Notes under the pieces: generated by a model
Databases searched by the model: none
Told to the model about the DNA's origin: nothing
What the model saw: only the letters and a program-made list of their open reading frames with translations
Assembly: GCF_003473485.1 (NCBI RefSeq)
Contig: NC_053043.1
Coordinates: 2,366,001 to 2,430,000, forward strand
Direction: 5' to 3'
Origin: Medicago truncatula
Lineage: Eukaryota > Streptophyta > Magnoliopsida > Fabales > Fabaceae
DNA: 64,000 bases
Shown here: positions 559 through 63,917 of the stretch, piece by piece
Numbering within the stretch: the stretch's first letter is position 1
Layout of the letters: each line of letters starts with the position of its first letter
Program-made: the position numbers and the translations under genes

Positions 559-1415
559 GACTGGTGCTAGTCACACCAAAAAAAAAACAAATTACACTCA
601 AATTTATTTAAAATTTTACAATAATACTAAAATTGTCCTCTTCATGTAAATTTTTAAAAACCCATCTTTTATGATCATTCTGAACCCTTACCCCCTTTCA
701 TCCACAAATCACCATAGATGTGCAACCAATATCTGAATCAACATCTTTGTTATTGATCTGTACTATATTCATAAAGGTTAGTGAATTTCATGAATTTCAT
801 TTTCGATGAGTTTCTATTTGTTTATTGGTTGTTTTGGTATGAGATATGCCTGTCAATTTGATTTTAAGTGAGAGGTTAGTGTAAATTAAGTTTAGGTGTA
901 TGTATATAAAAGAGGTTAGTGTAATTTACGTATGTAGGTTAATGTAAATTCAAGTTTACGTATGTTCAATTTAGGTTAGTGTAAATTCAGTTTACTTACG
1001 TTCAATCTAGGTTAATCTAAATTAAGTTTACTTACGTTCAATTTAGGTTAATGTAAATTTGTTTACGTATGTATATAAGAGGTTAGTGTAAATTCAGTTT
1101 ACTTACGTTCAATCTAGGTTAATGTAAATTCAGTTTACTTACGTTCAATCTAGGTTAATGTAAATTAAGTTTGTAAATTCAGTTTACTTACGTTCAATCT
1201 AGGTTAATGTAAATTAAGTTTACTTATGTTCAATTTAGGTTAATGTAAATTAAGTTTACTTTTGTTCAATTTAGGTTAATGTAAATTAAGTTTACTTTTG
1301 TTCAATTTACGTTAATGTAAATTTAGTTAATTTGAAATTTTTATTTTAGTTAAAGGGTATATTAGTCATTCTGGGGTGTAACTTGTTTTTTTTTTTGGTG
1401 TGACTAGCATCAGTC
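559..1415 (+). mobile_element. MULE-type MITE with internal minisatellite, copy 1
   Basis: Terminal inverted repeats start GACTGGTGCTAGTCACACC and end with the complement (one mismatch). A perfect 9-bp target duplication (TTAAAATAT) lies at 550-558 and 1416-1424; this size is typical of Mutator-like elements. The left third is unique sequence. About 890-1320 is a tandem array of a roughly 36-bp unit (core AGGTTAATGTAAATT, CAGTTTACTTACGTTCAATC) with shortened variants. No transposase. Homologous copies lie at 14642, 22642 and 33180. Confidence 0.85.
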
Positions 1416-1842
1416 TTAAAATATACATAGATTCTACCAAATTTACTCTGCGCTCGCATAATTTAGTGTTACAATATGTATTGTTAGCATTGATCTTATG
1501 TTATTATATTAATTAATTAAAGATCGTTTTATGAAGTGATACAATATTAATTTATAAGACCATTTTAAGGAGTATGGATCCTCTTCATTTTCTTTTTCTT
1601 AAAGGAGGATACTCTCTATTTATAAAAATAAATGGAAAATCTCATTTAGAAAGATATACATACAAAAAAAGTTGTGGGTCGAACCATTAAATGAGGCTAA
1701 CCATCATTAATTATTTTTATAATATTTATGTGTTTTTATCTCTTCAAATAAAACAAATGAAGAAAGACATAAATGAAGATTTTAACTCATTTAGAGGAAC
1801 TATCCTTCAAAAAAAAACTCATTTAGAGGAACTAAAAATTTT

Positions 1843-2350
1843 GGTTAAATATGTTTTTGGCCTATAAATATAACAATATTTCGTTTTAGTCTTTCTAAAA
1901 TTTTCCTTCAACTTTTAGTACCTATAAAAATTTCAATCATTACTTTTGATCCCTAATTTTAAATAAATTTCTATATTTTTTTAATGAAATTATACATAAA
2001 TGTGTAGAATATTGTAAAAATCGCTCCTAAAAAATATTAAATTTTTTTAACAAAACATAAATTAAATATGAATTTTTAACCTTCAAAAATATATAAATTC
2101 ATATTAATCCATGTTGTGTTAAAAAAATTTAAATTTATTTAGGAGAGAGATTCTTATAATATTATAAATTTTTCAACAAAATTTTATCCAAAAATATGAA
2201 TTCTACATATGAGTTTACTTCAAAGGAATGACCAAAAGATGAAAAGTTATAAAGATGGAAAACTTTTGGGGAACTAAAAATTGAAGAAATTTTTTAGAGG
2301 ACTAAAACGAAAAATTGACATATTTATAGGGACGGAAAACATATTTAACC
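1843..2350. mobile_element. MULE-like MITE (GGTTAAATATG termini)
   Basis: The ends are inverted repeats: GGTTAAATATGTTTTTGGCC at the left and the complement of GGTTAAATATGTTTTCCGTC at the right. Flanks are near-identical (CTAAAAATTTT at 1832-1842, CTAAAAAATTT from 2351), a probable target duplication of about 10 bp with one indel. The interior is AT-rich and noncoding, and its arms fold back on each other (the 'cctataaaaatttc' and 'ggactaaaacgaaaaat' regions). Confidence 0.7.
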
Positions 2351-2362
2351 CTAAAAAATTTA

Positions 2363-3138
2363 GAATAAATACCCAAATTTGTCCTTGAATTTGCAAGGAC
2401 GAGCCAAATTTGTCCCCCAATTTCTCAAAATATCTCTAATTCGTCCCTGAATTTAATAGACGTCCGTCACATTCATCCATCCGTCAAGTTGGGATGTTAA
2501 CGATGTCGACTTGTTTTGTTAACCTCTCACAAGGCTTGCCATGTCAGAAGCCACACAAGCAGGACTAATTTGATTGAAAATGACAAAATTTTTAAGGACA
2601 AAATTGATTAATTTACAGAAAAAATGGTTGTTATACAACAGCTTTTTCTTCCCCAAATCTATAAAATTGAAACCCTAATTTTACAATTTGTCATCTAGAG
2701 TCCAAAATCCCAAAATTTCTATCATTAATTGATGACAACGTTCTTCCCCAATTCTAAAAACTTCAAAACCTGTTTTTTATTTTTATAAATAAATTGTCAA
2801 ATTAGGGTTCCAATTTAATAGATTTGGGGAAGAAAGAGTATATAACGACCGTTTTTCGCAAATCAGTGTTCCAATTTTCTGCAAATCAATCAATTTGATC
2901 CTTTTGAAAATTTTGTCACTTTTAGCCAAATTAATATCTGCTTGTGTGGCATTTGACATGTCAAATCTTGTGAGAGGTTTACAAAACACGTCAGCATTGT
3001 AAGTAAATATCTCAACTTAACAGAGAGACTAATTTGATTAACATTGACAACTTCAAAAATTAAGGTGATATTTCGATAAATTGAAGGACGAATTTGATTG
3101 ATACTTGCGAATTCAACGACGAATTTGAGTTTTTACTC
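2363..3138. mobile_element. foldback MULE-like MITE with ~380-bp arms
   Basis: Nearly the whole element is an imperfect inverted repeat around about 2740. The left end GAATAAATACCCAAATTTG pairs with the right end (complement GAGTAAAAACTCAAATTCG). Internal arms such as 'cctctcacaaggcttgccat' (2523-) and its partner near 2950-2980 also pair. A 10-bp flanking repeat with one mismatch (AAAAAATTTA at 2353-2362, AAAAAGTTTA at 3139-3148) looks like its target duplication. It abuts the 1843-2350 element directly. Noncoding; a transcript would form a long hairpin. Confidence 0.75.
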
Positions 3139-3569
3139 AAAAAGTTTATCATAGACATGTTCAATTTCCTCATTCCAACATGTCCCTTGAGTAGGTAGTA
3201 GCATGTGGTGTGGACCCCACACCCACAGGCCTCAAAAGGCACAAACCGCTTCTAAGTACAGTGTTTCACTTTGGGAATCTCTGAACTTAGATCAGAAGTG
3301 TTCTATTCTTCTTCTTCTTCTTCACTCATTTCATTCCTACTTTCTTAGTTAACTCTCCTCTGCAACACAAACAAAGGTAAGTAAATATTCTAACTTCTTC
3401 TTCTTTTTTTGCCTTTTTCATGCCTTTTTCTTTTTTATCATTTACATTTCCATTGAAAGGATCATCTATTTAATAAATCTTCAATGTTTTTACCGCATGC
3501 ATGCTGTTGTTTTCGTTTTCCCTGGCTGCTTTGTGATTGATATATATGAGATCTGTTTGAATTAGACTT

Positions 3570-3790
3570 AGTTGAACTTTTCTACTAGCATAAGCACCTT
3601 TGAATTTTGATATTATTTGAGCGAACTTATGAAGTTGGCTTATGAAAACAACTTGTTGTTTATGCGAAAACAATTGAACTTTATTTTATCTTTTATGAAA
3701 ATATATTTACATAAGTGCTTATCATGATAAGCATTTGTGTGCTATAAGCTGCAAATCAAATTTAGTTGTTTATCTAAAAAGGGTCTTAAT
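3570..3790. mobile_element. fragment of a 'CTTAT' MITE inside the FRIGIDA-like 5' intron
   Basis: This intronic stretch shares motifs (CATAAGTGCTTATCATG, TATAAGCTG, GTTTATCTAAA) with MITE copies at about 53180-53500 and 59436-59714 and with shorter pieces in other introns. The ends are worn, and no target duplication is clear. Confidence 0.45.
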
Positions 3791-3873: not shown

Positions 3874-6800
3874 ATGGTTGTTAGGTCTTCTAAAAGAAAA
3901 AAGTTGCTGAATTTATATGACTCTAAGTCTGATGATGATGATGATGTACCTTTGAGAGCAAAGTCATTGTCAACTTTGAATTTGGGAGCAAGTAGTAGTA
4001 GTAGTAGTAGTAAATGTGATGACTCTGTTGAGAATAGGCATACTAGACTGCCAGCAAAGAGGCCTTTTGATGACAACATTCCCTCGCAAACTTCGGTTAA
4101 AAAATCAAAGTTGTCATCGTTTTCCATTAATCTCATGAAGAAGAGCATACTCGGATTAAGGAGCGTTGAGGAGGAAAAATTGCAATCCCTTGAGAGAGAT
4201 ATTGAGGAGTGCTCCAAAGAGCTTCTAAATAAGAAAAAGCAAGCTAGTGATGTTAGACAAACTAACCAATATTACGAGGAAATGCAAAACAAAATCGAAA
4301 AAGGTGTCAAAGATCTTGCAGCAAACGAAGAGCATGTCCGTTTCATCAAGGGTTTGATTAAAAAAAAAACACTTGAGCTCAAGAAAAATAAGAGACAGCT
4401 TCTTGCAGCCATGGATAGCAATAATAGAGGCCGTGGAAGATTGAAGGAAAAAGAGCTTGAGACTCTTTCACAAAAAATTGATGAATGTAATGAGGAAATT
4501 AAGACAAGAAAGGAAGAGCTTGATGCTTTGAAAATATCTGTTAGTCATAAAATAAAAGAGCTAATGTCAGAAAGGAGTAACATACTAAATGCAATGTCAG
4601 AGAGGAGAACTGGTCAGCTTGTTCAAATGAAGGACTTGGAGTCAACGAAAAAGCAATTTGAAGGTAGAGCTACGGAGTTTGATTCCAAAATGAAGCAGTG
4701 TGACCGACGAATAGAGGGGGTTGAATCAAATGAGAAGCTCTATGAAGGGCGGACAAAGGTGTCGGAGTCAAAGCAGGAGGAATTCGAAAGGCAGGTGAAG
4801 GAGCTTGAATCAAAAAAGAAGCAATTTGAAAGCCAGGAAAAGGTGCTCGGATTAAAAGAGAAGCTATTTGAAAGACAAGTAGATGATCTGGAATCATTCA
4901 AGGAGCATTTTGGAAGCCAACTGAAGGGACTCAAATCAAAAGAGAAGATATTTGAAAGACGGATGAAGGAGTTGAAGTCAAAAGAGGAACATTTTCAAAG
5001 ACGGGTGAAGGTGTTTGGATTAAGAGAGTGTGATTTTGAAGGCCAGGTGAAGGACTTCGAATCAAAATTGAAGCAATATGAAGGACAAGTGAAGGAGTTA
5101 CAATCAAAGAAAGAGGAATTTGAAGGCCGAGTGGAAGAGTTTAAATCACAAGAGAAGGACTTTGAAAGCCGAGTAAAGGGGTTTGAATCAAAAGAGAAGG
5201 ACTTTGAAAGCCGAGTGAGGAAGTTTGAATCAGTAGAGAAGGACTTTGAAAGCCTAGTGAAGAAGTTTGAATCAGTAGAGAAGGACTTTGAAAGCCGAGT
5301 GAGGAAGTTTGAATCAGTAGAGAAGGACTTTGAAAGCCGAGTGAAGAAGTTTGAATCAGTAGAGAAGGACTTTGAAAGCCGAGTGAGGAAGTTTGAATCA
5401 GTAGAGAAGGACTTTGAAATCCGAGTGAGGAAGTTTGAATCAGTAGAGAAGGACTTTGAAAGCCGAGTTAGGAAGTTTGAATCAGTAGAGAAGGACTTTG
5501 AAAGCCGAGTGAGGAAGTTTGAATCAAAAGAAGAGGAACTTGAACTAAGAGACGGTCAATATGAAACGTTAATAAAATCATTTGAAGAGGAAATTGAATC
5601 AGGTAAAAGCTCTTCATCTAGTTTAATGAGACATTTTAATTTCAACTTGATCTTTAATGATTTGATATTTTTAAATATATGACAGCTAATTATGCAATTT
5701 CATCTTTCACAGATGATCAACCAAGTCCTACCATTGATGGAAGAAGTTTGCAGTTTCTCCCAATTGAGGAAATTGATGAACTTGAGTCACATGGCAACGA
5801 CAGTCTAGCTAATCTGCTAGCATCATCATCAGATCCATCAAAAGATGTTTTAGATATAATCCAGAACCCCATCATTCCACAGTGTAAGGGAGAAAATGTT
5901 GTAATTATTGATGATCACCACATTGATCTGCTCGAACAACTGATGAGAATCTCACCACATGTTAAACCTCATGTGCGAGAAGAAGCAATGAAGCTAGCAC
6001 TTAAACTGAAAGCTTACATTGGCGAAAATACTGAAAATCCAGTGCCAGTTCTGGGGTTTTTGCTCCTTCTGTCAATTTATGGATTGGTTTCTTCTTTCGA
6101 TGAAGATGAAATTTTAAAGCTTTTTGGGTTTGCTGCTCAACACAAGATATCTGTAGAGCTGTTTGGGACTATGGGTTTGGCACATAAAGTTTCTGGTATG
6201 TTAGTTTAGAAATGTTTTGCTCAGAAACTAGTATCTCCTTTTTGCCTTTCTGCACATTGAGTCATTATACTTATTTTCTTCTCACTTCAAAGCGTAGGTT
6301 ACATCACGTGGTTATCAAATGTATAAATATTTTTGGATTGGGATTATAAACTATGGTATTAGCTGTTACTAAGAAATTGAACTGATATGGAATTGGCTTC
6401 TCGTACACATGATGCAAACCTTTCATTTTGTTTCCCCCGAAAGTTATTTCTGATTTGTTATAGAAAAGTTGGCATATTGGCTAATGCTTGGAAAATGAAA
6501 GACTTCAAATTTATATATCTTTCTAAACCAAGCGGTGAAAGAGTTTCAGTTAAGGATGCATTGTTTGGGAGAATTCGAGTTTGAATCATGGTTGGAACAA
6601 TCCTTAGTCAGGCTTTTCTTATATCTTGGTCGAACTCTGGATTACCAAGGCCCTTTTCCCTCAAGAACCGGAGCGTTAAGACCAAAAAAAACTATGCATA
6701 TGTGCTATTTTTTTAATGGTTTGAGGTGTTCTATTTTCCTCAATTTATTTTGAGATTTTATTCAACACCCGTATGTTAGTTTTGATGAAGTGAAATTTTC

Positions 6801-9128: not shown

Positions 9129-11528
9129 TTACACAAGTGACAGCTCTCCTGCAGGAATTGATCTCTTCACAAGTTTACTCCATGACTCATTGGTCTCTGT
9201 GATTACCTTAAGCGCGTAATCCTGTTCACAAAAAAAAAAGTTAGTAAATGATTTAAAGGAACATGTAAACTGCAAAACTCGGTCAAAAGATTAGTAACAG
9301 AAAGGAATTCATTAGGACAATTGTAAAGAGATTTGTGAAGTAAAAGTACCTTATTTACTGCCTGGTTGCCAAGACCAAATCTATTAGCAGGCTTCCCATC
9401 AGGTATCTTATAGTCTCTAAACCAGTCCCTAATAGCAGTGAGGGTTCCCTGAAGACAATCAAAGATTATAGACACCAATTAAGTATCACATCAAGCAATA
9501 ATTTTTCCATCTTAATGAAACTTTCGTTATGAAAGCAACTCCAGCATAGACATCAAGTAGTTAGGTAACGAAGCTTACTGGAAAATGCTTCTCAACATCA
9601 TCAACATCGTTCACAAGTGAAGCTTTTGGATCATCTAATGAAATTGCAACTATTTTCCAATCAAGTTCTCCTTCATCAATCATGGCTAATGCAGCTAAGG
9701 GTTTGACTTTGAGAACCTCTCCTATCTTCCCCTGCCTATCGCCGATCTCAACCACATCAACTACATACAGATTAACAGGAATTTTATGCACACTTGTTGC
9801 AGTCGTATTTAAGACAAAGATATTGAGACAACATGAGACAACATAATGGAATACCTGGATCGTTATCTCCAAATGCTCCTTCAACTTCATGGTTTGCAAG
9901 AGATGGATCTTCCCACGTTTGTGGAAGTAAGCCATAGTTCCAATGTATATTATAGCTGGAAAGAAAGCAAACGGTACATTTCAGAACAGGCTAAATATGG
10001 AACCAATCATGCCAAATTAACCAAGCAGAATTTTCAAGAGAAGACAAAATGATCAAAACAACTGATAAATGAGATATAACACATGCTCAAATTTTTCATG
10101 GTCGTATATTGACATCAGTAAAGAAGGCATATGTATGATATTTACATTGGCAATGTTCCATTGATAAAAGACAAAACCCTGGTTGGATTAGTGAAACAGA
10201 TTTAGCTTGAAACATAAAAGTGCATAGCCAAAGACAAATAATACAACCAAAAAAGGAACAGTATGAGCTTTGAAGTTGTCTCTCACGGGTAAAATCGAAG
10301 CTTTCCCTTTTTTGTATCCTGTTTAATGGGAGTGAAAGGCTCGTCAGTGGCAACCTCCATCTTTGCACTGGATTCTTTTGGTATTTCAACAATGAAGTTG
10401 AAGACACCATCACCTAGCTGCAATGGAATATCATGCCAGGGAGAAACCTGCAAATTTTACAAATTATATTAGTATGTATAAGTATACAGAACTACATTGT
10501 CCAGGGTAGCCCACGTTGCAGTAAACTCGCACTCACTTATAAAGCATCACTTTAATTTTTCCTTTTCTTTATGGAAATGTCAATAACATACCCTATACAG
10601 AATTATTAGGTTAATTGCACAAGTCCTAGCAACAAAAACTATGAAAATCTAACACTAGGTCCCTATCCTTGGTAAACAACTAACTCATGAAAGCCGAGGA
10701 AAAGTGTAGCACAACAAGGAAAACTCACACACATAAACATGATACCTAGGGTTTTAAAAAAAGGTCTGCAGCCGCGATGAGGCACAACATCAAGGTTTTT
10801 GATGTCTTCGCGACCGCGATCAAGCTTCTATGGCCACATTTGACTATTGTTTTCTGCAATACCACAGACTGCGATGCGACAGCGATTTAAATCCTTGCCG
10901 ACAATTCTGTCAGATTGTGATGTGCTATATATCAAAATTAGTTAACAATTAACACTTAACACAACACTATCACCTAACAACTGAACAATCAATTGATCTA
11001 TCAAAGTAAACACAACAACTACTAAGCAATTAAACAAATCCACCATTCAACAATTTATTTACTTAATACCACCACTATCATTCCATCAAACAAAAATCCC
11101 CAAATCAATGACATCATCAGCTTTCTATAACAATGATACAAAAAGGAATAAACTTTAAAGACCCAATATCATAATTTCCTAATTCTAAGCAAAACCCAAC
11201 ATCACAATTACAAAAAACTCCCCAAAACTCCAATACCCAAATTGATCAAATGAAAATATTGTACCTTTTTACCAGATTTGTCATGAAAGAAGACTCTATA
11301 ATCAAGGGTTTGTGGTTCACCTTCCTCCTTGACAGAAACCTCAGGGTAATAGATAGCCTTACAAGTATAAGACCTGGTAGTTCTAGAAGAAACCTTGAGA
11401 TTGTTGAGACGAAGAGCACGACCACCCAGAAATGGTTTCTTACCAAGAAGAGTGTAGGTTGAGTTGCTGGCTATGGTTATGGCTCTAGTGGTGGCTGCCA
11501 TGGATGCTTCTGATGATGTTTGGTTCAA
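9129..11528 (-). CDS. PPA6: soluble inorganic pyrophosphatase, chloroplast form (PPA6-type)
   Basis: Six exons on the minus strand, all GT/AG and in phase: 11528-11265, 10447-10287, 9955-9855, 9760-9579, 9448-9350, 9221-9129. The product is 299 residues from the ATG at 11528, or 289 from the ATG at 11498 (MAATTRAITI), which gives the more usual transit-peptide start. The enzyme hydrolyses PPi to two phosphates and pulls plastid biosynthesis (for example ADP-glucose formation) forward. Family I signature residues are visible: YRVFFHDKSGKK, then VSPWHDIPLQLGDG, EIPKESSAKMEVATDEPFTP, NYGLLPQTWEDPS, the metal-binding DNDPVDVVEIG, IDEGELDWKIVAI, and the C-terminal AIRDWFRDYKIPDGKPANRF. The N-terminal ~65 residues are Ser/Thr/Arg-rich, which fits chloroplast import. 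Nothing in the sequence suggests the gene is broken. Confidence 0.95.
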
Positions 11529-14632: not shown

Positions 14633-14641
14633 CTAAATTGA

Positions 14642-15498
14642 GACTGGTGCTAGTCACATTCAAAAAAAAAATAAGTTACACTCCAGAATGACTAATATAC
14701 CCTTTAACTAAAATAAAAATTTCAAATCAACTAAATTTACATTAACGTAAATTGAACATAAGTAAACTTAATTTATATTAATCTAAATTGAACATAAGCT
14801 TAATTTACATTAACCTAAATTGAACATAAGTAAACTTAATTTACATTAACCTAGATTGAACGTAAGTAAACTGAATTTACATTAACCTATATTGAACATA
14901 AGTAAACTTAATTTACATTAACCTAGATTGAACGTAAGTAAACTTAATTTACATTAACCTAGATTAAACGTAAGTAAACTTAATTTACACTAACCTCTTA
15001 TATACATACGTAAACTAAATTTACATTAACCTAAATTGAACATAAGTAAACTTAATTTACATTAACCTAGATTGAATGTAAGTAAACTGAATTTACACTA
15101 ACCTAAATTGAACATACGTAAACTTAAATTTACATTAACCTACATATGTAAACTACACTAACCCCTTTTCGTAAACTTAATTTACACTAACCTCTCACTT
15201 AAAATCAAATTGGGAGGCATATCTCATACCAAAACAAACAATAAACAAATAGAAACTCATCGAAAATGAAATTCACTAACCTTTATGAATATAGTACAGA
15301 TCAATAACAAAGATGTTGATTCAGATATTGATTGCACATCTATGGTGATTTGTGGATGAAAGGGGGTAAGGGTTCAGAATGATCATAAAAGATGGATTTT
15401 TAAAAATTTACATGAAGAGGGCAATTTTAGTATTATTGTAAAAGTTTAAATAAATTTAGATGTAACTTATTTTTTTTGGGGTGTGACTAACACCAGTC
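14642..15498 (-). mobile_element. MULE-type MITE with internal minisatellite, copy 2
   Basis: Reverse-oriented relative to copy 1. Left terminus GACTGGTGCTAGTCACATTC; right terminus complementary (GTGTGACTAACACCAGTC). A perfect 9-bp target duplication CTAAATTGA lies at 14633-14641 and 15499-15507. The array of about 36-bp units (AACCTAGATTGAACGTAAGT, AAACTTAATTTACATT) spans about 14725-15200. The unique arm (about 15210-15460, including 'tatggtgatttgtggatgaa') matches copy 1. Length 857 bp, the same as copy 1. Confidence 0.88.
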
Positions 15499-15672
15499 CT
15501 AAATTGACGACCAACGCATATGTAAGAGGAAAAAAGAAAATTTTATCCGTAGTTTAGAATCGCAGTTTAGAAGAGAAATAATAATAAACACATAAACAAT
15601 TTAATAAACACATATTATTATTTACTAAATTGTTTCTATGTTTATTATTATTTCACTCCTAAACTACAATAT

Positions 15673-22641: not shown

Positions 22642-23697
22642 GACCGGTGCTAGTCACACCTCAAAAAAAACAAGTTACACCCCAGAATGACTAATATACC
22701 CCTAAGTTGAACATAAGTAAACTAAATTTACATTAACCTAAATTGAACATAAGTAAACTTAATTTACATTGAACATAAGTAAACTAAATTTACATTAACC
22801 TAAATTGAATAAGTAAACTGAATTTACATACTGAACATAAGTAAACTTAATTTACATTAACCTAGATTGAGTAAACTGAATTTACACTAACATCTTATAT
22901 CTAGTTTTAACGTAAGTAAACTAAATTTACATTAACCTGGATTGAACATAAGTAAACTAAATTTACATTGACATAAGTAAACTAAATTTACATTAACCTA
23001 AATTGAACATAAGTAAACTGAATTTACATTAACCTAGATTGAACATAAGTAAACTGAATTTACATTAACCTAGATTGAACATAAGTAAACTTAATTTACA
23101 TTAACCTAGATTGAGTAAACTGAGTTTACACTAACCTCTTATATACATGTAAACTGAATTTACACTAACCTAGATTGAACGTAAAGTTAACTAAATTTAC
23201 ATTAACCTAGATTGAACATAATAAGTAAACTTAATTTACATTGATATAAGTAAACTAAATTTACATTAACCTAAATTGAACATAAGTAAACTTAATTTAC
23301 ACTAACCTAGATTGAACATAATAAGTAAACTTAATTTACATTGACATAAGCAAACTAAATTTACATTAACCTAAATTGAACATAAGTAAACTTAATTTAC
23401 ACTAACCTAAATTGAACATATCTCATACCAAAACAAACAATAAACAAATAGAAACTCATTGAAAATGAAATTCATTAATCTTTATGAATATAGTACAAAT
23501 CAATAACAAAGATGTTGATTCAAATATTGGTTGCACATCTATGGTGATTTGTGGATGAAAGGGGGTAAGGGTTCAGAATGATCATAAAAGATTGATTTTT
23601 AAAAATTTACATGAAGAGGACAATTTTGGTATTATTGTAAAAATTTAAATAAATTTGGGTGTAACTAGTTTTTTTTGGGGTGTGACTAGCACCAGTC
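22642..23697 (-). mobile_element. MULE-type MITE with internal minisatellite, copy 3 (expanded)
   Basis: Termini GACCGGTGCTAGTCACACC (left) and GGTGTGACTAGCACCAGTC (right) match copies 1 and 2 in reverse orientation. The repeat array (about 22690-23420) is the longest of the family here and mixes full units with truncated ones (TTGACATAAGTAAACTAAAT and similar). The unique arm ('tatggtgatttgtggatgaa') is at about 23535-23575. No convincing 9-bp target duplication remains (TAACACGAC versus TTATTTTTA). Confidence 0.85.
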
Positions 23698-25287: not shown

Positions 25288-26010
25288 CAGTGCCTTTATA
25301 ACCTAGCTTTAGTAAAAAAAAATCATTTTATGTGTGTATAATTATGAAGTAGTAAATTTTTCTTAAGAAAAATGAATTCATTCAATTGATTTTTTATATT
25401 TTAAATATCATTCTTTTTTATAAATTCATACTTTTATATAGATTCGATGACCTACAACAATGTTTCATTTGTGATCCACCGAATTATGATTTATTTTAGG
25501 TACTATCTTTCATTTGGATCAGATAAATTGTTTAAAGGTAATAATATTTTTTTTGCAAGATCTTATAAGTTATAACCTAGCTTTAGTAAAAAAAATCATT
25601 TTATATGTGTATATTTATGAAATAGTAAATCTTTCTTAAAAAAAATGAATTCATTCAATTGATTTTTTATATTTTAAATATCATTCTTTTATATAAATTT
25701 ATACTTTTATATAGATTCGATGAACTACAACATTGTTTCATTTGTGATCAAACGAATTATGATTTATTTTAGGTACTATCTTTCATTTTGATCAGATAAA
25801 TTGTTCAAAGGTATTAATTTTTTATTTTTTTTGCAGTGTCTTATAAGTTATAACCTAGCTTTAGTAAAAAAAAAAATCATTTTATATGTGTATATTTATG
25901 AAATAGTAAATATTTCTTAAAAAAAAAAATGAATTCATTCAATTGATTTTTTTATATTTTAAATATCATTCTTTTATATAAATTCATAATTTTATATGTG
26001 TATATTTATC
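25288..26010 (+). repeat. ~275-bp subterminal tandem repeats, 2.6 copies
   Basis: Units start near 25288, 25553 and 25836 (the last one truncated). Shared words include 'ataacctagctttagtaaaa', 'gaattcattcaattgatttt' and 'tatagattcgatga'. One inverted copy lies at 27826-27963 plus 29995-30178, split by the solo LTR. Each unit starts at the boundary with the terminal arm, so the array extends the inverted repeat. Confidence 0.88.
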
Positions 26011-30716: not shown

Positions 30717-32055
30717 ATTTGGAATATATGTATAAAACGATCATCAGGCCAGAATTAGTGTCGATATGAAAGCAAGGAGAATTAGCAGTCAAGAATACTG
30801 TCATTAGATAACTCAATAAAAGTTCACCAATTAATTCACCAAGAATTACACATATAATGTTGCAGCAATACTTTCATGAAAATTAAATTGCAAAACATCA
30901 AATAAGGGAGTACGTATACATTAAAACAGCTTAAGGCAATCCAAAACAGTCATGAAAGCCTGCCAAGTCTTGAACATGAAACAAATGGTAAATACATATG
31001 CTATGCGGACAATCTTGCAGATGGAATGGCATGAACAAACCAGCACTAAGTTATCAATTAACCTGCAATACAACAAATGATTTAAATGTGATCAAGGGTT
31101 ACTGTGTCTACAATAACATACCCAAATTAGGTTTACCATAACAGTTGTCAATTTACCTTAAACGCATTCAGTAACTTATAGGACAGAAAATACATTCCAT
31201 TGAATTAGGCATAATTTGTATCACATCATTTTCCTGAGCAACGAAAGCACACCCTCTATTTCCTACTTCATAGTAAGAATGCCCTGGACAATCACATAAA
31301 GAACTTAATATGTCATCTGCCGCCATTAGAAAGAAAAAAAGAAAGTCAATTTATACAAAATTTAGACATCAAAGGTTGCAGGGATAGCCATAGAACACTA
31401 CGGTGTTGCCGAAATTATCTGAGGAAGAAGACGGTTGGGAAATGCAAGGAGACGTACAGCTGAACTGAAACAGAAAACGCTAAATGCATCAGCACTCGAA
31501 AACAAAAACACAGTTGTCGCTCCAAATTCATCAAAACTAAACTCATCTCCTTCCCATGTAGTCAAAACCACCGATAAAATAACAACCATAACTACTAATA
31601 CAACTATCCGCTTAAAAAGAAACCTGCAAAATTATGCAGGAAAATAACTTGTAAGCTTTCCAAAGCTTCTAACCGGATACACTCAACTAAACCATATTAT
31701 GAATATGAAAAATTGAATGGTAAAATTATGAAACGGAGTACATCAATCGCACAAAATCAAAATGCAGGAAAATAACTTGTATTCTATCCGTATACACCGC
31801 AATTTGGAACCTGCTATTATTTTAAATAGCTCATGTTGAAAAGAAAGAACCAAAGACTAGCTTATTAGTTATTACAAATTATTTTCTGGTTTGATAGCAT
31901 TGCTACTAGAACAAAAACATATTTGGTTGTAGGAGATTTTGTGAGAAAACAATCTTCAAATCATGCACTACACTTTGTTTTTATAATTATTTCATTTCTT
32001 TACACGTTCAATCATTATATATAAATTGTTTTACTTTCCAAAATTAACAACAAAT
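30717..32055. other. intergenic; possible remnant or noncoding exons on the minus strand
   Basis: Less AT-rich than the block before it. Two minus-strand acceptor-like sites (TTGTATTGCAG near 31064 and TAATTTTGCAG near 31624) are present. The second opens a frame to 31398 with a hydrophobic stretch (IVVLVVMVVILSVVLTTWEG). No homology was recognised and no 5' exons were found, so no gene is called. Confidence 0.3.
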
Positions 32056-32129
32056 GGTTTCGTGGTGTAGTTGGTTATCACGTCAGTCTAACACACTGAA
32101 GGTCTCCGGTTCGAACCCGGGCGAAGCCA
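32056..32129 (+). tRNA. tRNA-Val (AAC)
   Basis: A complete cloverleaf. Acceptor stem GGTTTCG pairs with CGAAGCC, with A as discriminator. D-arm region is GTGTAGTTGGTTATCAC. The anticodon stem TCAGT/ACTGA encloses loop CTAACAC, with anticodon AAC at 32090-32092. The T arm contains GGTTCGAACCC. A T-run about 6 nt downstream serves as the polymerase III stop. No intron. It lies 365 bp upstream of the TIN1 start codon on the same strand. Confidence 0.97.
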
Positions 32130-32348
32130 TCATCTTTTTCGTTCTTGAAATTTTCTGTATATATCTGACAATAACAAAACGTCGTCGTATTGCACATAAA
32201 TTTCGTGGATATTATTATTACACGCCGATATCATAGCCGCATAATTAGAATTTACTGTAATTAATTAATTAATTATTTTTCTCACTTTTAACTATATCCA
32301 CGAATGTCCACCAATCATATTCCTTCTAATATAACTTTCTCCATTTTC

Positions 32349-32493: not shown

Positions 32494-35104
32494 ATGAAAT
32501 CGCTTATTTTCGTAATCGCTTTTCTTCTCTTTAATTCTTCCCTCGCTTCCGAAACCAATCCTCCATATCCCAAAGCTTTTTCCGATTTCAAGGAATCAAT
32601 TGTGAAAGGATTAGGGTTTAACGCAGATGACTTCAAGGTTACGGGATTTGATCCTCGAGAAGCACAGGTTGGGCATTCGGTAGAATATCAATTCGACGTT
32701 GAAATTGATGATAAAGTTGTTCCATTTAAGCTTCTTGAAGATACGAAACGTTGGGATTATGTTGATCTTCCCATTTTTAGGGTTGAGGAGGAAAATGGAT
32801 TGGTGGAAAAACGGGTTGACGGAAATGGGTTACCCGTTTTGGCTCCGTTTCAGCTTGCTGGACCAATGGAGATTTGGGTTCAGGATGCTAAGGATATGAG
32901 ACTCTCTCTCCCTGTAAGTGCTTTTCTCTAATTTTCTCTTAATTTATTTATTGTATCTTATAATTGCATTCATTATTCTTATGTTTTTAATTAAGTTAAG
33001 CTATTTAATTAACAATTTGTCTTTCAAAAAAAAAAAAAATTAACAATTTGAGAACCAAATTTGTGTTTTTATTAAAAAAAAGATTAACCTTTTTTGACTA
33101 AAATATTTAATTTTAATTGCACACATTGTGGTTATTTGGAGGATTAATCTAGGTGGTGTAATCATTATCATAATATCTAGAGTTTTTCTATTTACACCCC
33201 ATGTTTTTCTGGTTACACCCAAATTTTCTTAAATTTTTTTATAATACCAAAATTGCCCTTTTATATAATTTTTCTTAAAACCCTAATTTTATTCATTGTC
33301 AGTGAGTTTCACCCTCTTTCACCACACAAAGCGATCGATCAAACAATTTGATGTTCAATATCAATCTCCATAAAAATTAAAGAGTGAATCAAAATATTTT
33401 TCATCCATACTCAATTGGATATAAGTAAGTGAATTTCTTCTTCTATTTGCTAGTTTCAATTTTTTTCCTTCAACTGCAATGATGCATTGTACGATTACGG
33501 TTTTAATTTACATTGACAAGGTTAACTTAAATTCAGTTTAAGTAGGTTCATGTAAACTTAATAAACTAAGTTTACATGAACCTACTTAAACTGAGTTTAC
33601 ATGAACCTACTTAAATTGAGTTAACATGAACCTACTTAAACTGAGTTTACATGAACCTACTTAAACTGAGTTTACATGAACCTACTTAAACTGATTTTAC
33701 AAAATCGCAGAACAAGGAAAACACAAAATCAGAACTGAGAACCCATAACAAGAAAACACAATCGATTGAAGAACAACACTTGCTAACCTGATTTGCTTCG
33801 AATTTTCTTTGAAATCATGAATGGACGTGAGAAAGTATGGTTTTGAAAATCTTCGCAGAACACAATCGATCGATTGGAGAATTATGGTTTTGGAAGAAGG
33901 GTTTTGGGGTGTAACCAAAAAAGAAGGAATAGGCTTTTTGAAAATCAAATTTTATGAAAGGATAATCTTGTCATTTTAGGGTGCAACCATGATTAACTAG
34001 GGTGCAAGTAGAAAAATTCTAATATCTATTATGTTGACAAAAGTAAATCATTTTGTAAAGATTATGCAGTAATTATATGTTACCTTATGTGACACAGTGA
34101 CACTTAATTTCATTCCCTATATATATATATATATATATGATTGGAATTTATTAAAGAAATTTGTTTTTGTTTTGGTGAAATTGGGAAGATAGAAGGGTGT
34201 GTAGTGTATAGAGTAAGATGGTGTAGTTGAATGTGGATAATGTGAAATTGACTTGATGTTGATTTGGTATTTGCAGCATGATGTGGATGCTGGGGTGTTG
34301 AAGAAAGTCGTTTTGGCTGATGGTGCAGTGGTTACTGTGAAAGGTGCAAGATCAGTGAGTCTTCGCCATCCTCTTACTTTACCTCTGCCGTTAAACCGAA
34401 GCCAAAATGGCTTTGCTGCCGGGCTTCTCACGTTGGCTGAGCATCTCCGCCATGCTTCTCGTGGCCAAGATGCTCCCCTTCTTTCACTCCGGATTGTTGG
34501 TCCTACCTCACTTGAAGCCCCTTCCTCTGCATCAACTTCTTCTAATAACAGGTTGAAGCTTAAGCGTCTTGCACCTGGTCTTGTGGAGTTATCCTCTCAA
34601 TCAAAATCCAAATTAGTTGACACTTCCCTGTCTACCGTTGATCTCCAGGAGGAAGCCCCGACCCTCCTTACTCCTACCCAGTTTACCGCATTGTGGCCTC
34701 TTGCCTCTCTTAATGGATCAAATGCAAACTTGTTGGGTTTTGAGAGATTGTTATCTTCTGTGTTGGGTCCTAAGGCGAATGAAAAAGGTTCCTTCAGGTT
34801 GTTGAAGGCTGATGTTTCTGCTCAGACTTTTGTGAAGATAGGATTCCAAGCTGAGAAGAAGCTGAAAGAAGGAGATGGGATTAGTTTTGAGGGTTTCCCT
34901 GAATGGAGGACTAAGCCTGACACTGTGAGGTTGCATTTTGAGGTGCTGGCTAAAGTTGATGGTGATAAAGTCATACCTGAGAGAGTCATGCAAGTGAACC
35001 CTGTTGTCACAGAGGACAGTGTGGCGCCAAATATGCTGACTAACAATGGGACCATGTCAAAGATGCCACTCGTTCAGCCTCCGCCCATCCCCTTCGCCTT
35101 GTAA
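32494..35104 (+). CDS. TIN1: TUNICAMYCIN INDUCED 1 (TIN1) homologue
   Basis: Two exons, 32494-32913 and 34277-35104, joined in phase 0 at SLP|HDVDAG; 415 residues. A signal peptide is evident (MKSLIFVIAFLLFNSSLA), so the product enters the ER. The rest matches Arabidopsis TIN1, a plant-specific ER-stress-induced protein, along its length: YPKAFSDFKESIVKGLGF, PVLAPFQLAGPMEIWVQDA, VKGARSVSLRHPLTLPLPL, LSLRIVGPTSLE, KLKRLAPGLVELSS, SNANLLGFERLLSSVLGPKA, FPEWRTKPDTVRLHFEVLAK. Length is close to that of the Arabidopsis protein (about 424). The biochemical function is unknown; Arabidopsis mutants affect pollen surface structure. The ERSE-II/UPRE site upstream predicts induction by the unfolded protein response. 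The single intron holds a minisatellite MITE. Confidence 0.95.
33180..34019 (+). mobile_element. MULE-type MITE with internal minisatellite, copy 4 (diverged), in the TIN1 intron
   Basis: Left terminus GAGTTTTTCTATTTACACCC; right terminus complementary to GAATTTTTCTACTTGCACCC. A perfect 9-bp target duplication TAATATCTA is at 33171-33179 and 34020-34028. The left arm ('taataccaaaattgcccttt') aligns with copy 1 ('taatactaaaattgtcctct'). The array at about 33530-33700 uses a 25-bp unit (AACCTACTTAAACTGAGTTT plus ACATG), which looks like the 36-bp unit of the other copies minus 11 bp. Its orientation is the same as that of the gene. Confidence 0.85.
34114..34139. repeat. (TA)n microsatellite in the TIN1 intron
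   Basis: About 11 TA units just upstream of TIN1 exon 2. Confidence 0.9.
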
Positions 35105-50715: not shown

Positions 50716-53700
50716 CTAAGTTGGTTTCCTGGTGGTGCAGCTCTTAGGCACATGGAGACTATGAAACTTTGGTTCCTTTGGGACAGTCAAAGTTCTCCTT
50801 CCTTGCGAACAAGATGCATCATTTTTACGTGGCTTTGTTGTGTCCTTTGGTTTTAGAGTGTCTGAACGCTTTTCAGTAATGACACCTAGTTTACAAGCCG
50901 TTCCAAGAACTACTTTTTCTTTCTTCTTTGACAAAACACTGCAAGATACACTTTTATTAGTAAATTTCCAATTCCAAAGACAATAGATTGAAAATACGAA
51001 GCTTTATTCTTAAATTTCCAACCTTCTAGGCATCACAACATTACGTTGCATCATTTTGGATTTTCTTTTGAAATTTTCATCCAGATCAATATGTTTCTGA
51101 AGTTTAGAACCAGGATTTCTGTTAGGTGTTTTAGCAGATAATATAAGTTGCACTTTGCTGTTGTAGTTGTTGTCACTATGAATGTTTCCCTACACAATAT
51201 TTTGAGGAAGTTTCAGCCACTGTCTTTAAAAAACACACATTAAGCAAGCAGTAATTCAGGTGCTTAGCAATAAGCAGGACCTTATGTGCATTAACTTACA
51301 GTTTGATTTTGTTGAGTTGTTTGGTTTGAATTCTCGCTGCAACTGCTATAATAGTCTTGATCACTTTGTGCTGTACAAGTTTCATTCTTCTGAAAGGAAG
51401 ATAAAAGAAAAGGCAAATTTTAGATATACAAAAGCAAATAATAAAAGGTTGATTGAGGTTCACAATGAAACTTAATTGCTTACATTCTTATGTTTCTTTA
51501 TTGCATTGCCATCTTTAGCAGTGATTTCTTTCAAGGGTGATGTGATTTTTTTCTCCAGCTTTGCTTCTTTGAGAATTCCCCTTTCCTGCGGCATACAATA
51601 CATCATAAATCACACGCTAGATGATTTCAACTTACTTCTAAACTAAATAAACCAATGAGAACAGAAGCCCTTACTTACATCAGTTCTGAACTTAAACGGC
51701 TTAGGATTTGTGGGCTTTAATTTTCTGTATTTTACAACTTGAGAACCAGTTGTTGTCGATGTAGATTTCTGTTTCAAGGTCATAAAGATTATCAATCAAG
51801 TAGGTGGGAAGTTAAAACAACATCAGTGAGATTCTAAACTAGGCCAAACCTTATGTATTTTTCCATCCTCCTGCTTGCTTTCAAGAATGTTCTTTTTGGA
51901 ACCGTCATTGATGGTGCTTACATCTCTGCGGCTACAATTTTTTTAATGATTACTTTAAGTTTAAGAAACTAAAAAAAAAGCCGGCATAAAACATACTTTG
52001 AGACAAATCAAATTACTTACATATTCTCACAAGGCGCTGAAGAGTTTTCCTTGTCATCATTCTCATTAAGTTGAATCTCATTTTCTTTATCATCAGAAGA
52101 CATTGAACTTCCTACAGCCTTTCTCTTTTTGGCTTCAGGAATTCTTCTCTTGTGTGAGACTGTGATCCTTTTCTCTTCATTTTCACTCTCTTCAATAGTT
52201 TTCTTCTCTTCATTATTCGAACTTGACAGTGAGGTAATATCATCTCTAGAAACTTCTGACCGAGTTAGAACTGAACTCTTCTCTTCTTCGTTTGAACTTG
52301 ACAGTGAAGTAACATCATCTCCAGAAGCTTGTGACAGAGTTAGAACTGAGCTCTTCTCTTCTTCTTTCGAAGTTGACAGTGAGGTAATATCATCTCTAGA
52401 AGCTTCTGACAAAGTTAGAACTGAACTCTCTCCTCTTTCTAGAGAGTCACTCCTTGATTTTTCTTCCGTCTCCAACTCACTAGAGTCACTTTCATGCGGC
52501 ACGGGAACATGGTTTTTCTCCATAGCTTTCGCTTTCTTCTCTTTTAGACATTTAACAGTGTTATTTTCTGGTTCGTTTCGATTACTAGAATACAATGAAT
52601 CAAACACACGGCTTTTAACCTCTCGTCCCTTAAATTGCACCTTTCTAGAGGAACCCACTGGCAATGAGTTGTTACATCCTTCTCCATTCTTCTTCACTCC
52701 ATTAAATTCAAGCTTCTTCATTGCAGAACACAATGCTTTCATGGATGTTTTCAATTCCACAGAACTCTTTGTCCCAACCACCTTCTTTGGTGAGTTAAAA
52801 ACCAATGCCTTAGCCACTACCCTGCTCTTAGGCTTCGACACAGCAACAGTCAATGATTTCTTGTTCTGAACACTTCTAAACTGTTCCAAATTAGAAACCT
52901 TCTTTTGATTCCTTGGAGTGGTCAAAGCCTTACTCACGGAGGGTGATTGCTTCACCTTGGCTTTTGGGGTTGCAGCAACCTTAGAAAGAGGTTTGACAAC
53001 TTTCACTTTATTCTCAGTCACCTTGTGTGACAATGAGGAAATGAAATCCATTCTTGACATCCTTGGCTTTGCAGGAGCAGTATTCGGGCACTTCAAATTC
53101 GAACTGAAAAATAACAACAGCGAAAAATTGTGTCACTTTAAAGGCTCTACTACACAAGATTTTTAGTCCAATCACATCAGGATTCTTGATATTGTTTATG
53201 ACTAGCAGCTTGTTTTGATCGACTTATTTGAGATTATCTACCGGCATAAACACTTATTATACCTTTTGTGAGAACTAATGGAAACCACTTATGGCATGTT
53301 CATAGCTATTTTCAGCTTATTTCCATAAGCTCTACAGGATAAAATATGCAAACAACTTATAGATTATATGAAGACAATTTGACTTTGTTTCATCTTTTGT
53401 CATATAAATGGCGTATGGCTTATAGACTTATGCTTAAGCACTTATATGAAGAACACTTAAAGGGCATAATTGAGCTGTTTATCTAAACATAACCTAGATT
53501 GCATTTGAAAACCATTTTCAAAACCCCAACTTTACCTACTATACTAAGAAATTATTTGAAAAATTTGTTCACGATACAAGTGTTAATAGTTGGCTACCTC
53601 GCTTCTCTTTCTCTTCGATTCAATGCTTTTCTAAGCCGAACATTGGGGCTTCTAGCTGCCATAACCTGAAAATCCAACACAAATTTGAGAAATACTCGTT

Positions 53701-60609: not shown

Positions 60610-63600
60610 TATGTATAGAGATCATTATTCACTTCTTTTTGGTTTTGTGCCAAAAATCAAGGGTTGGTCTGAGTTATTTTTAAGCGGACATTCTTCTCAT
60701 TAGTGTCTTTTTTTAAGAGATTTCTCTTTAGTGTCTTTACACGCAGTCATGCACTAATGTGTGGGTCAAGTTTTAACAGGTATCGTATATGACTGCTTTC
60801 CGCCCTAGGTATACATCCAGTACATAACTGGTGCACTTGAGGTGCTTCCTTACAAAGTTATGGGACTTGGATCCACTAAAATGAGGGTTGTAAATTATAT
60901 GGACTAGCGAGGTTACAATCATTGATTAGGAAATCTGTAGTTGAGATTATGATAAGATACATAAACATACATGCATATACATGGTAAACTAGGAAGTTGT
61001 TACAAACTTACAATTCACTCAAATTTTCAATTAACAATTACATTTTCAGACTTTTCATACTAGTGCTCCCCCTCATACAAATATTTGGGTCATAGCAGTG
61101 GACGGGAATAAGTCTCCTCTAGTTTGATTCACAAGGGGGAGAGTTGGAAAAGTAAAACTTATTTATCAAACCACGCCAACATTGATAGGGAGTGAAAATT
61201 CAGGGAGAATGGATTTTGCCCCCCCTCCCCTCCTGGCCATTTCACCCAACTAAACACTACTAGAGGAGCCAAACCACTGTTTATCTATGTCCCAAGGTCA
61301 CAACATAAGAAATATTTATTACTGTTAAATTATATCTAACTACTTGAATAAAAACATATCAAATGTTTTTTGGATTTTCAAGCAAATTGTCATTTAACAG
61401 GTTGTATTTTAATTTTCAAATATAGCTGAAGGGCACAAGTTAAGAAAACGTTTTCTTTAAAAATATTTATACGATATTTCAATATGGCTTAGATACTATC
61501 ACAATAAGCCAATATGACTCCAGTACTTGCAGTTTCATGCAAAGCCAAAGCACAAATTGTGACTAATGGTTTGATTGGACGCAGAGAGAAAATGGCTAGC
61601 AAGAAAATGAAGCTTAGGGAAGTTAGAGAGAAAATGAGATATGATGATAGTTACTACTATTTATTAATATCTCCCCATAGTGGCAATCTGTAGTAAGCAT
61701 CACATTATTATTCAGGGTAGTCACTGTCGCTGCTGCCATAGTGGCTGAAATCGTATTAAATCATGAAGTTGAAGCCCGAATATTTTGCCCTCAATTTGAA
61801 TGTTTTTGTTATACAAAGAGGAGTTGCCGTTCCTTTGTTTAGAAAAAAAATAGGTTTGAAACCCTTGTTTGGTTCTTTACAAAAACACATACCTCTTGGT
61901 TATACACTCATACTTTGGTGTTTTCAAGCCACACCTCTACTCCTGCACTTTCTGCTATGATCTTCTTCGTGTCCTCTGTTCCACACCCACCTACTGCTCT
62001 AGTCGTCTTTCTTGGTTTGGTTCCCTTTCATCTGCTATGAAACCTCTATTTTATCGACCTTTTAATTTTTTTCCTTTTCTTCATTTAGATATCTTTCCAT
62101 TTAGGGGGAAAAGGATTGATTGTTGTTGTTGATGTAGATATCTTGCCCTCTGAATATATAGCTTCAATTTTGAGTTTTTATTTTTTAAATTTGAGTTGTC
62201 ATAACTTAAATATGTGTAATATAAATTTTAAGTGTAGCAGTCATATCATTATCTGCTATCCGGCTAGAGCAGTTTTGGTTTTGCCTTACACACGTTGCAA
62301 TTTGGGATTCATAACTATAGGCTATATATAAGTAGGATGGAGAGAAAAAGGAAAGAAAGAATTACGAAAACTTCTCTCATTTGGTTAACTGGACAGTTGA
62401 GAAGAAAAACAAAATTATTGTGCAAAGACTATTATGTTCTTTTAAAGTAATGGCAAGGGCTTAACTGGGTCAATTTGTCATTTCAAACACAATGTAATTG
62501 AAGCACCCCATGTCGAATATGAGACTTCTTTTCTTGAATATTTGTGACATTAAAATAACCATGATCGTATATATGCTGACCTCATAGTTTATCTATATTA
62601 ATGGAACTGAATTTCTTTTGGTGCTTTCTACCAGCAAATCGAGCTGTCGAAGTAAATGAAATGTGGCGAGCGCGGGAGAAAGAATTGGAGCTAGATAAAC
62701 GAGTTACAGGCTCATCAAAAGATAAAAGAAGTGATGACAAAAGGCATATGGATCATAACACATCAAGAAGCGCAGAAAGACACGCCGGGGATGATAGAAG
62801 CACTAGTGCCTCTGCTTCATGCTCAACTAAAAATGAATACGGGCATACTCAAGAAGGTTTAAAGGATGAAGAGCTTGAGGAGTTTCTACACTCAAGGTAT
62901 TATTACTCTCTTATACTTTCGGATATTTTATCTGCATGTATGAATGCCTTCAAAATATCTACTGTTGAGTAAATTGACAATTCAGTCCTTGAAACTATAA
63001 GGGATGGCTATTCAGCCCCTCAAATTTACGCAATAGCAAAATAGTGTCTTAAATTAAAGAATACTATTAATCAGTCTAGTCCCTGTATCAAAATATTTCT
63101 TTATTGAACATCCATCAAAACCAATGAAAGACATACATATAGAATTAAATAGTCTTTTGTTGCATCAAAACAAGTGTAAAACCTTTAAATTGTGGTGCAA
63201 AATTTGAAAAAAAGACTAAATTGATTGATATTTTTAAATTTAAGAGACTAAATTGCTATTTCACAAATTTGAGGAACTGAGTTAACTGATTGTTACAATT
63301 TCTAGGACTAAAATACCTATTTATTTACTTATAATCTGTCTCTCTTTAATTTCTTTAAAGCTGAGGAAACTCCATTTTGGTGCAGGAAGAAGCGAGGCAG
63401 AGGTGCTATTGGTCCAAGGATGGATGAGACTGGACCTTACCTTCCTCCTAATCCTGATGAAGAGCCTTCTACTAGTCCGGATTTTAGGGAACACCGTGCT
63501 ATTTATGGTCCAAAGAGGCCTCCATCGTTGCAATCATATGAATCTTCTAAGGAGATACTTGAAGGAAAATGGAAAAAGAGGCAGTCATATGAATCTTCTG

Positions 63601-63917
63601 AGGAGGAGCTACATGAAAAAAAACGGAAAATGAGGCAGTCATATGAATCTTCTGAGGAGGAGCTACATGAAAAAAAACGGAAAAAGAGGCAGTCATATGA
63701 ATCTTCTGAGGATGGGCTACATGAAGAAAAACGGAAAAAGAGGCAGTCATATGAATCTTCTGAGGATGAGCTACATGAAGAGAAACGGAAAAAGAGTAAA
63801 AAATCTCATCATAAAAGCCACTCGGACAAGGTGCATTCTAAGAAGCACAGGTCCAAAGAGAAATCTAAGCATAAGAAAAGGAGAAGGGAGGAGAAAACAA
63901 GTAAACATCGACGCTAA
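60069..63917 (+). CDS. conserved Lys/Arg/Ser-rich nuclear-type protein of unknown function
   Basis: Three coding exons, 60069-60237, 62635-62896 and 63386-63917, in phase (QQ|A, SR|K junctions); 320 residues. The N-terminus is the conserved part: MDLETENRLAAMLMREAAEL, then VRSRPNSRFLTATVRGVQQA and NRAVEVNEMWRAREKELELD. A Ser/Asp/Lys-rich middle follows, then HSRKKRGRGAIGPRMDETGP with YLPPNPDEEP, and a C-terminal array of an 18-residue repeat ending in a KSHHKSHSDK and KKRRREEKTSKHRR tail. Several nuclear-localisation-like basic clusters are present. I know plant proteins with this N-terminus only as uncharacterised; the RS/KE-rich tail resembles splicing-associated proteins, but no catalytic domain is visible. 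The 2.4-kb second intron is transposon-like in part. Confidence 0.85.
60580..60606 (+). repeat. poly(T) run
   Basis: About 27 consecutive T in the intron of the Lys/Ser-rich gene; possibly the A-tail of an unrecognised minus-strand retroposon. Confidence 0.8.
63529..63795 (+). repeat. 54-bp in-frame coding minisatellite
   Basis: The unit QSYESSEEELHEKKRKMR (18 residues) is repeated about five times with small changes (SKEILEGKWKKR, SEDGLHEEKRKKR, SEDELHEEKRKK). DNA words such as 'cagtcatatgaatcttctga' recur every 54 bp. Confidence 0.95.

Follow-up and report, generated by a model that had tools for sequence, protein, structure and literature searches.

Short, probably Mutator-like elements of Medicago truncatula with an internal array of a conserved palindrome

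Four array-bearing elements in the window

The stretch of DNA analyzed here (the window, 64 kb) covers positions 2,366,001-2,430,000 of contig C2 in the 430 Mb genome of Medicago truncatula. A search of the window with the terminus GACTGGTGCTAGTCACACC, allowing up to three mismatches, gave six matches against 0 expected from 100 shuffles, and these were placed at both ends of three elements (559-1415, 14642-15498 and 22642-23697). The three elements have this terminus in common and are referred to as family A.

Element 1 (559-1415, forward strand, 857 bp) ends in GACTGGTGCTAGTCACACC on both sides, with one mismatch at the 3' end, and is flanked by exact copies of the target-site duplication TTAAAATAT at 550-558 and 1416-1424. 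Its 5' terminal inverted repeat (TIR; 559-597, forward strand, about 39 bp) pairs with the 3' TIR at 1376-1415 on the reverse strand, which was located by the terminus search and by its reverse match (93%) to the 5' end. Between the arms (about 310 bp on the 5' side, about 90 bp on the 3' side) lies a forward-strand minisatellite with the 36-bp unit TAGGTTAATGTAAATTNAGTTTACTTAYGTTCAATY (873-1328, delimited by TRF at 935-1328 together with unit scans), which makes up around half of the element and runs mostly in one orientation (13 unit hits one way, 1 the other).

Element 2 (14642-15498, reverse strand, 857 bp) is flanked by the exact duplication CTAAATTGA (14633-14641 and 15499-15507), and its minisatellite of 36-bp units (14729-15142, reverse strand) has 11.6 copies according to TRF. 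Element 3 (22642-23697, reverse strand, 1056 bp) lacks a target duplication in its flanks, TAACACGAC and TTATTTTTA; its minisatellite (22707-23420, reverse strand) was found by TRF to contain 25- and 61-bp variants as well as the 36-bp unit. Element 4 (33180-34019, forward strand, 840 bp) has termini beginning with GAGTTTTTCTATTTACACCC, which differ from those of family A, and exact copies of the duplication TAATATCTA at 33171-33179 and 34020-34028. Its array (33513-33701, forward strand) consists of a single forward unit, followed by 25-bp units in the opposite orientation (33562-33701 by TRF; the inversion of the first unit was seen by eye).

The original prediction, made from the sequence of the window, described a tandem array as the interior of each element and perfect 9-bp duplications around three of them, and both statements were borne out, with element 3 as the one that has no duplication. 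It also took the four elements to be copies of one family. This holds for the elements at 559, 14642 and 22642, while element 4 belongs to a related family, termed B, whose relationship to A is described below.

A tRNA-Val (AAC) gene is located at 32055-32131, 1 kb from element 4. Other tandem repeats in the window have periods of 42/84 bp (4721-5531), 75 bp (52202-52437) and 54 bp (63530-63796); these periods are all multiples of 3, and the three are perhaps coding repeats. A further tandem repeat of 273 bp (25296-25997) has 2.5 copies with 92% matches.

Family A in the genome

The exact 19-bp terminus of family A occurs at 160 sites in the genome, and a 29-bp motif at the junction of the 5' arm gave 236 matches at up to three mismatches; control searches (with the reversed pattern in the case of the terminus) gave 0 for both. 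Family A is thus dispersed to hundreds of sites. From 100 of the 160 terminus sites, 76 regions were planned and 40 were fetched, 20 with both ends exact and 20 with one end exact, and in 38 of these 40 the two ends lay no more than 4 kb apart. Together with seven elements found by overall similarity and the three window copies, these gave 48 two-ended A elements for scoring. Locus L001 was excluded from the counts because it repeats element 1.

In 39 of the 48 elements the 9-bp duplication is perfect, and in four it has one mismatch; the five others include L043, in which the duplication is present with a shift of 2 bp. When flanks were re-paired at random, perfect duplications numbered 0.8 per 48 on average and never more than 5. 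The duplications are AT-rich (0.88, compared with 0.74 in the flanks), with a TTA...TAA-like target. The TIRs are about 40 bp long, match in reverse between the two ends at 84-95%, and contain no array. Two pairs of loci with duplications in common (L004/L014 and L011/L029) were considered as segmental copies and rejected, as their flanks differ.

The length of 46 of the 48 elements was 544-1103 bp. The other two, L033 and L046, are unusually long because of nested inserts and were omitted from the length statistics. The element at L033 (about 725-2641) holds an LTR-like insert of about 1.9 kb with TG...CA ends and ACGTG flanks, and that at L046 (about 338-1919) an insert of about 1.6 kb with the ends GGTACCG...CGATACC and TAG adjoining on both sides. 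The remaining two of the 40 fetched regions, L035 and L045, are partial A copies in which 158 and 203 bp were matched, and a dyad scan found no array in them.

Array units were present in all 48 two-ended copies, with 4-20 unit hits per copy. The mean arm distance among A copies was 6.2%, and array length showed no relation to it (Mantel r 0.02, p 0.39, 46 elements). L015 and L004, for example, have arms that are 0.8% apart and arrays that differ by one indel of 170 bp. Among 19 pairs compared, the larger array indels were mostly of 11, 25, 36, 49, 62, 85, 121 or 181 bp; others measured, e.g., 9, 100, 110 or 332 bp, and two pairs had no indel. Changes in array length are therefore mostly steps of a unit or part of a unit. 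This indel pattern and the lack of relation to arm distance indicate that change is faster in the arrays than in the arms. The genome-wide check of terminus and duplications thus agreed with the predicted mobile family, with its 9-bp duplications and variable arrays.

That these are mobile elements of the Mutator-like kind is considered highly probable. The 9-bp duplications, the TIRs and the many short copies fit the MULE-MITE label of the original prediction, and the assignment to Mutator is based on duplication length and termini only, as no transposase with these ends was found among the candidates scored. Of the candidates for the profiles PF10551 (150 of 923 scored) and PF03108 (150 of 430 scored), none could be placed within one element together with a terminus or junction from the lists. 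This comparison was made by eye against incomplete lists, comprising 100 of the 160 A termini, 100 of the 236 junctions, 100 of 581 B termini, all 11 termini of a subfamily A2, and 40 scored of 554 arms of type A3.

Two neighborhoods were examined as possible exceptions. At L035 the partial copy (9343-9500, reverse strand) consists of the first 158 bp of A followed by other sequence, and about 9 kb inwards, at the edge of the fetched stretch, there is a PF03108 match on the same strand (311-1057). Between the two, no dyads and no second terminus at up to five mismatches were found. The neighborhood looked incidental, but a very long element may extend here past the end of the fetched sequence. 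At L059 a B element (268-1088, 95%) lies some 360 bp upstream of open frames (1450-3699) that are split and carry a MULE domain (1.3e-30). This gene, which we take to be FAR1-like, was rejected as an autonomous partner, its proximity to the B element likewise appearing incidental.

The domain DUF1985, presumably that of the VANC proteins of Arabidopsis, gave no match over the cut-off in this genome when all 64 of 64 candidates were scored, and one below it (31.3 versus 35.1 bits). A literal VANC homologue is thus unlikely, and any such protein would be of another kind.

Related families and the 15-bp palindrome

The palindrome GTAAAYTNAGTTTAM is likewise arrayed, between different spacers, in those copies of four related groups (A2, A3, B and C) that were read. 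Groups A3 and C were found through terminus variants, and A2 through clusters of exact A units on contig C1 that had no listed A terminus or junction (L065-L067). These clusters were examined as candidates for free arrays, and all proved to be elements with altered termini: one further A copy and the subfamily A2. One end of L066 lies beyond the fetched stretch.

In a search with element 4, 40 of 721 candidates were scored; 39 of these rows were near full length and, besides the window's own copy, were 93-97% identical to it. The B-type terminus occurs at 581 sites at up to one mismatch, those of group C included. When a shift of a few bases at the ends was allowed, a perfect 9-bp duplication was found in six of 11 B elements (ten fetched copies and element 4), one mismatch in two, and more in three. 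In the A, A2, A3 and C sets, perfect duplications were present at L061, L062, L064, L065, L067 and L069, and none was found at L060 and L063. The flank of L070 is a simple TA repeat and is uninformative in this respect; L066, L068 and L071 were outside the scoring.

The 5' arms of single representatives were 89% identical between A and A2, 82% between A2 and A3, 78% between A and A3, and 84% between B and C. Across these two sets the values were 64% (A3/B), 68% (A3/C), 66% (A2/C), 59% (A2/B), 58% (A/C) and 56% (A/B). The maximum in five shuffles per pair was 55% for A/C and 51% for the rest, with A/B at 49% or less. Taken by themselves, the A/C and A/B relations would thus be weak, and it is A3 that links the groups.

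Despite this divergence of the arms, the dyad was found at 14-23 sites per kb in the arrays of all five groups at up to one mismatch, and any base shuffle gave at most one site (arrays of 12 of 46 A, 11 B, 4 A2, 2 A3 and 4 C elements). No 8-mer was common to the top 25 lists of all five groups, because A and A2 have GTAAATT and the other groups GTAAACT. Eight 8-mers appeared in three or four of the lists, all of them within the dyad or at its edge, and the frequent spacer words differed from family to family. By eye, the 25-bp unit of B corresponds to the 36-bp unit of A without an 11-bp linker, save for three bases.

At L068 (minus strand), an A3-type 5' arm and a dyad array appear by eye to be followed by helicase-like exons, and no 3' terminus was found within 2.7 kb. 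This may be a truncation beside a gene or a case of gene capture.

The sequence of the units themselves was also compared. The first scan had selected units by similarity to the consensus, and in a repeat scan 168 A units (59 distinct) were taken with no similarity condition on the unit itself. In these the dyad GTAAATTNAGTTTAC was near-fixed, with a free center base, and the linker varied in parts; the GTAAA...TTTAC dyad that had been noted in the window is thus the most constant part of the unit. Among the nine common unit types, none of the 14 positions in the dyad arms varied, compared with 10 of the 22 other positions (nominal hypergeometric p 0.0025, which ignores linkage of variants between positions within unit types). 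Private changes numbered 16 over the 15 core sites and 46 over the 21 remaining sites, and 37 of these 62 fell on G or C. Since private changes are fewer in the core and many affect G or C, part of the contrast between dyad and spacer may reflect mutability rather than selection.

Origin and possible role of the array

In the first 34.1 Mb of contig C1, none of 22 clusters of exact units was seen as a free-standing array. These clusters were drawn from 100 listed of 1,230 exact-unit matches, a search that arrays of diverged units would escape. The 15 clusters that were read all lay inside elements, one of which had an end beyond the fetched stretch, and for the other seven an element was inferred from the adjoining 5'-junction motif alone. 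The original prediction had suggested that the arrays travel as mobile cargo and seed new minisatellites. They are indeed spread over the genome with the elements, but no array was seen outside an element in this sample, and therefore the seeding of independent minisatellites is not shown. Moreover, every two-ended A copy that was read has the array, as do the copies examined from the four related groups, and it thus seems to be a long-standing part of the element and not a cargo acquired recently.

Our preferred explanation, to which we assign a probability of about 0.5, is that these are non-autonomous Mutator-like elements whose dyads have been kept as clustered protein-binding sites. MITE-sized elements would have been moved in trans by a Mutator-like transposase. 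The array may have lain in a non-coding region of the autonomous ancestor (a promoter or an intron in the 5' UTR), as is suggested by the splice-donor-like sequence AAAGGTTAGTG, seen by eye at the end of the 5' arm just before the array. The 15-bp palindrome would be a putative site for a dimeric protein (the transposase, an accessory protein or a host protein), and selection on elements that were still transposing might have kept the sites clustered while slippage or unequal exchange altered the spacers and the number of copies. As a working analogy we take the arrayed motifs to which VANC proteins bind in Arabidopsis VANDALs. Taken separately, the maintenance of the dyads by protein binding is held tentatively, at a little short of an even chance.

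Passive hitchhiking is nearly as likely as this protein-binding reading. A minisatellite that arose once in an ancestral element could have been copied along with no role for its sequence, its length being free to drift through slippage, unequal exchange or post-excision repair. Such an account agrees with the free variation of array length and its independence of arm distance, with private changes that track base composition, and with the tandem-repeat MITEs described from animals and one bacterium. It is less easily reconciled with a dyad that is common to groups whose 5' arms are 56-68% identical and whose spacers have changed in length and sequence, or with the lack of any array-less copy among the 48 two-ended A elements. 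Alternatively, the structure of the DNA could itself sustain the arrays, with hairpins of single-stranded dyads driving slippage and template switching matching the half-sites to each other, and no protein partner. In support of this, the B array folds as single-stranded DNA better than dinucleotide shuffles (z -4.38, 0 of 200), and in the centroid fold of the A array three dyads form GTAAA/TTTAC stems of 5 bp with loops of 5 nt. Taken whole, however, the A array folds only slightly better than its shuffles (z -1.67, 12 of 200; arm -0.43 and flank -0.69 as controls), and its dyad carries a near-fixed mismatch (position 15 is T in all units and the opposite position 19 is G in 97-98%), which correction by template should remove. 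We therefore regard this explanation as improbable; it overlaps with the others, and the odds given to the readings accordingly do not sum to one.

The nature of the elements could also be questioned, because foldback and Helentron-like (Pearl-type) elements typically carry tandem arrays, either internally or at their ends, as described in reviews and in papers on Tetris and Galileo. The elements studied here differ from these in several respects. Foldback elements have long TIRs built of tandem repeats, whereas the TIRs here are about 40 bp long and free of the array. The arrays are internal, and those of A lie mostly in a single orientation, as in element 1. To our knowledge, Helentrons leave no target duplication of the kind found in most A copies. 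An origin of this type is very improbable.

Compared with known systems, the protein-binding reading has its closest parallel in the VANDALs. VANC21 is reported to bind a 9-base motif that forms arrays in the introns and upstream sequences of VANDAL21 (PMC5735166, PMC10398659), and related copies differ through gain and loss of repeats in these VANC-target arrays (PMC5735166). Common to VANDAL21, VANDAL6 and the present families are a short motif arrayed in non-coding DNA, gain and loss of units, and array units that evolve together (PMC5735166, PMC10398659). VANDALs, on the other hand, are described as having degenerate TIRs (PMC10398659) and VANC genes, whereas the elements studied here have TIRs of about 40 bp and a motif that is palindromic, and their host gave no DUF1985 match above the cut-off.

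MuTAnT, a group of 218 Mutator-like copies from the same host, also includes short non-autonomous elements (PMC4486113). For MuTAnT, TA microsatellites are the reported target of insertion, whereas here a tandem repeat lies inside the element (PMC4486113). MITEs with tandem repeats of variable copy number are described in animals (Xstir and miDNA4 of Xenopus, lepidopteran (GTCY)n elements, those of Donax bivalves, and Pearl-type elements); these belong to other superfamilies and hosts, and the excerpts available make no mention of a palindromic unit kept across diverged families. BrickBuilt of Porphyromonas gingivalis likewise has a 23-nt minisatellite within a MITE, and is a bacterial element with 19 copies in one strain (PMC4596501). 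Searches of the open-access literature showed no report of the present family, nor of any Mutator-like group in plants that carries a conserved array of palindromes. MITEs with internal tandem repeats are already known, and what appears to be new here is the presence of such a palindromic array in Mutator-like elements of a plant.

A bolder form of the protein-binding reading, which we consider rather doubtful, is that the array serves as a movable platform on which a putative palindrome-binding protein of a Mutator-like system lands. The VANC-target principle would then have been invented independently a second time, and at least five element groups would have kept the site as the sequence around it diverged. 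If this were true, clustered sites would provide sequence-specific anti-silencing or an enhancement of transposition.

Tandem arrays in transposons are usually taken as by-products. The 236 junction sites of family A represent many dispersed arrays of one dyad, with varied copy number and similar arms, and so constitute a natural dose series, which is suited to asking if a protein is recruited by clustered motifs and if these affect methylation or mobility. With this family it could also be tested directly if free minisatellites are seeded by transposons, and the family would supply multi-allelic markers based on insertion and repeat number.
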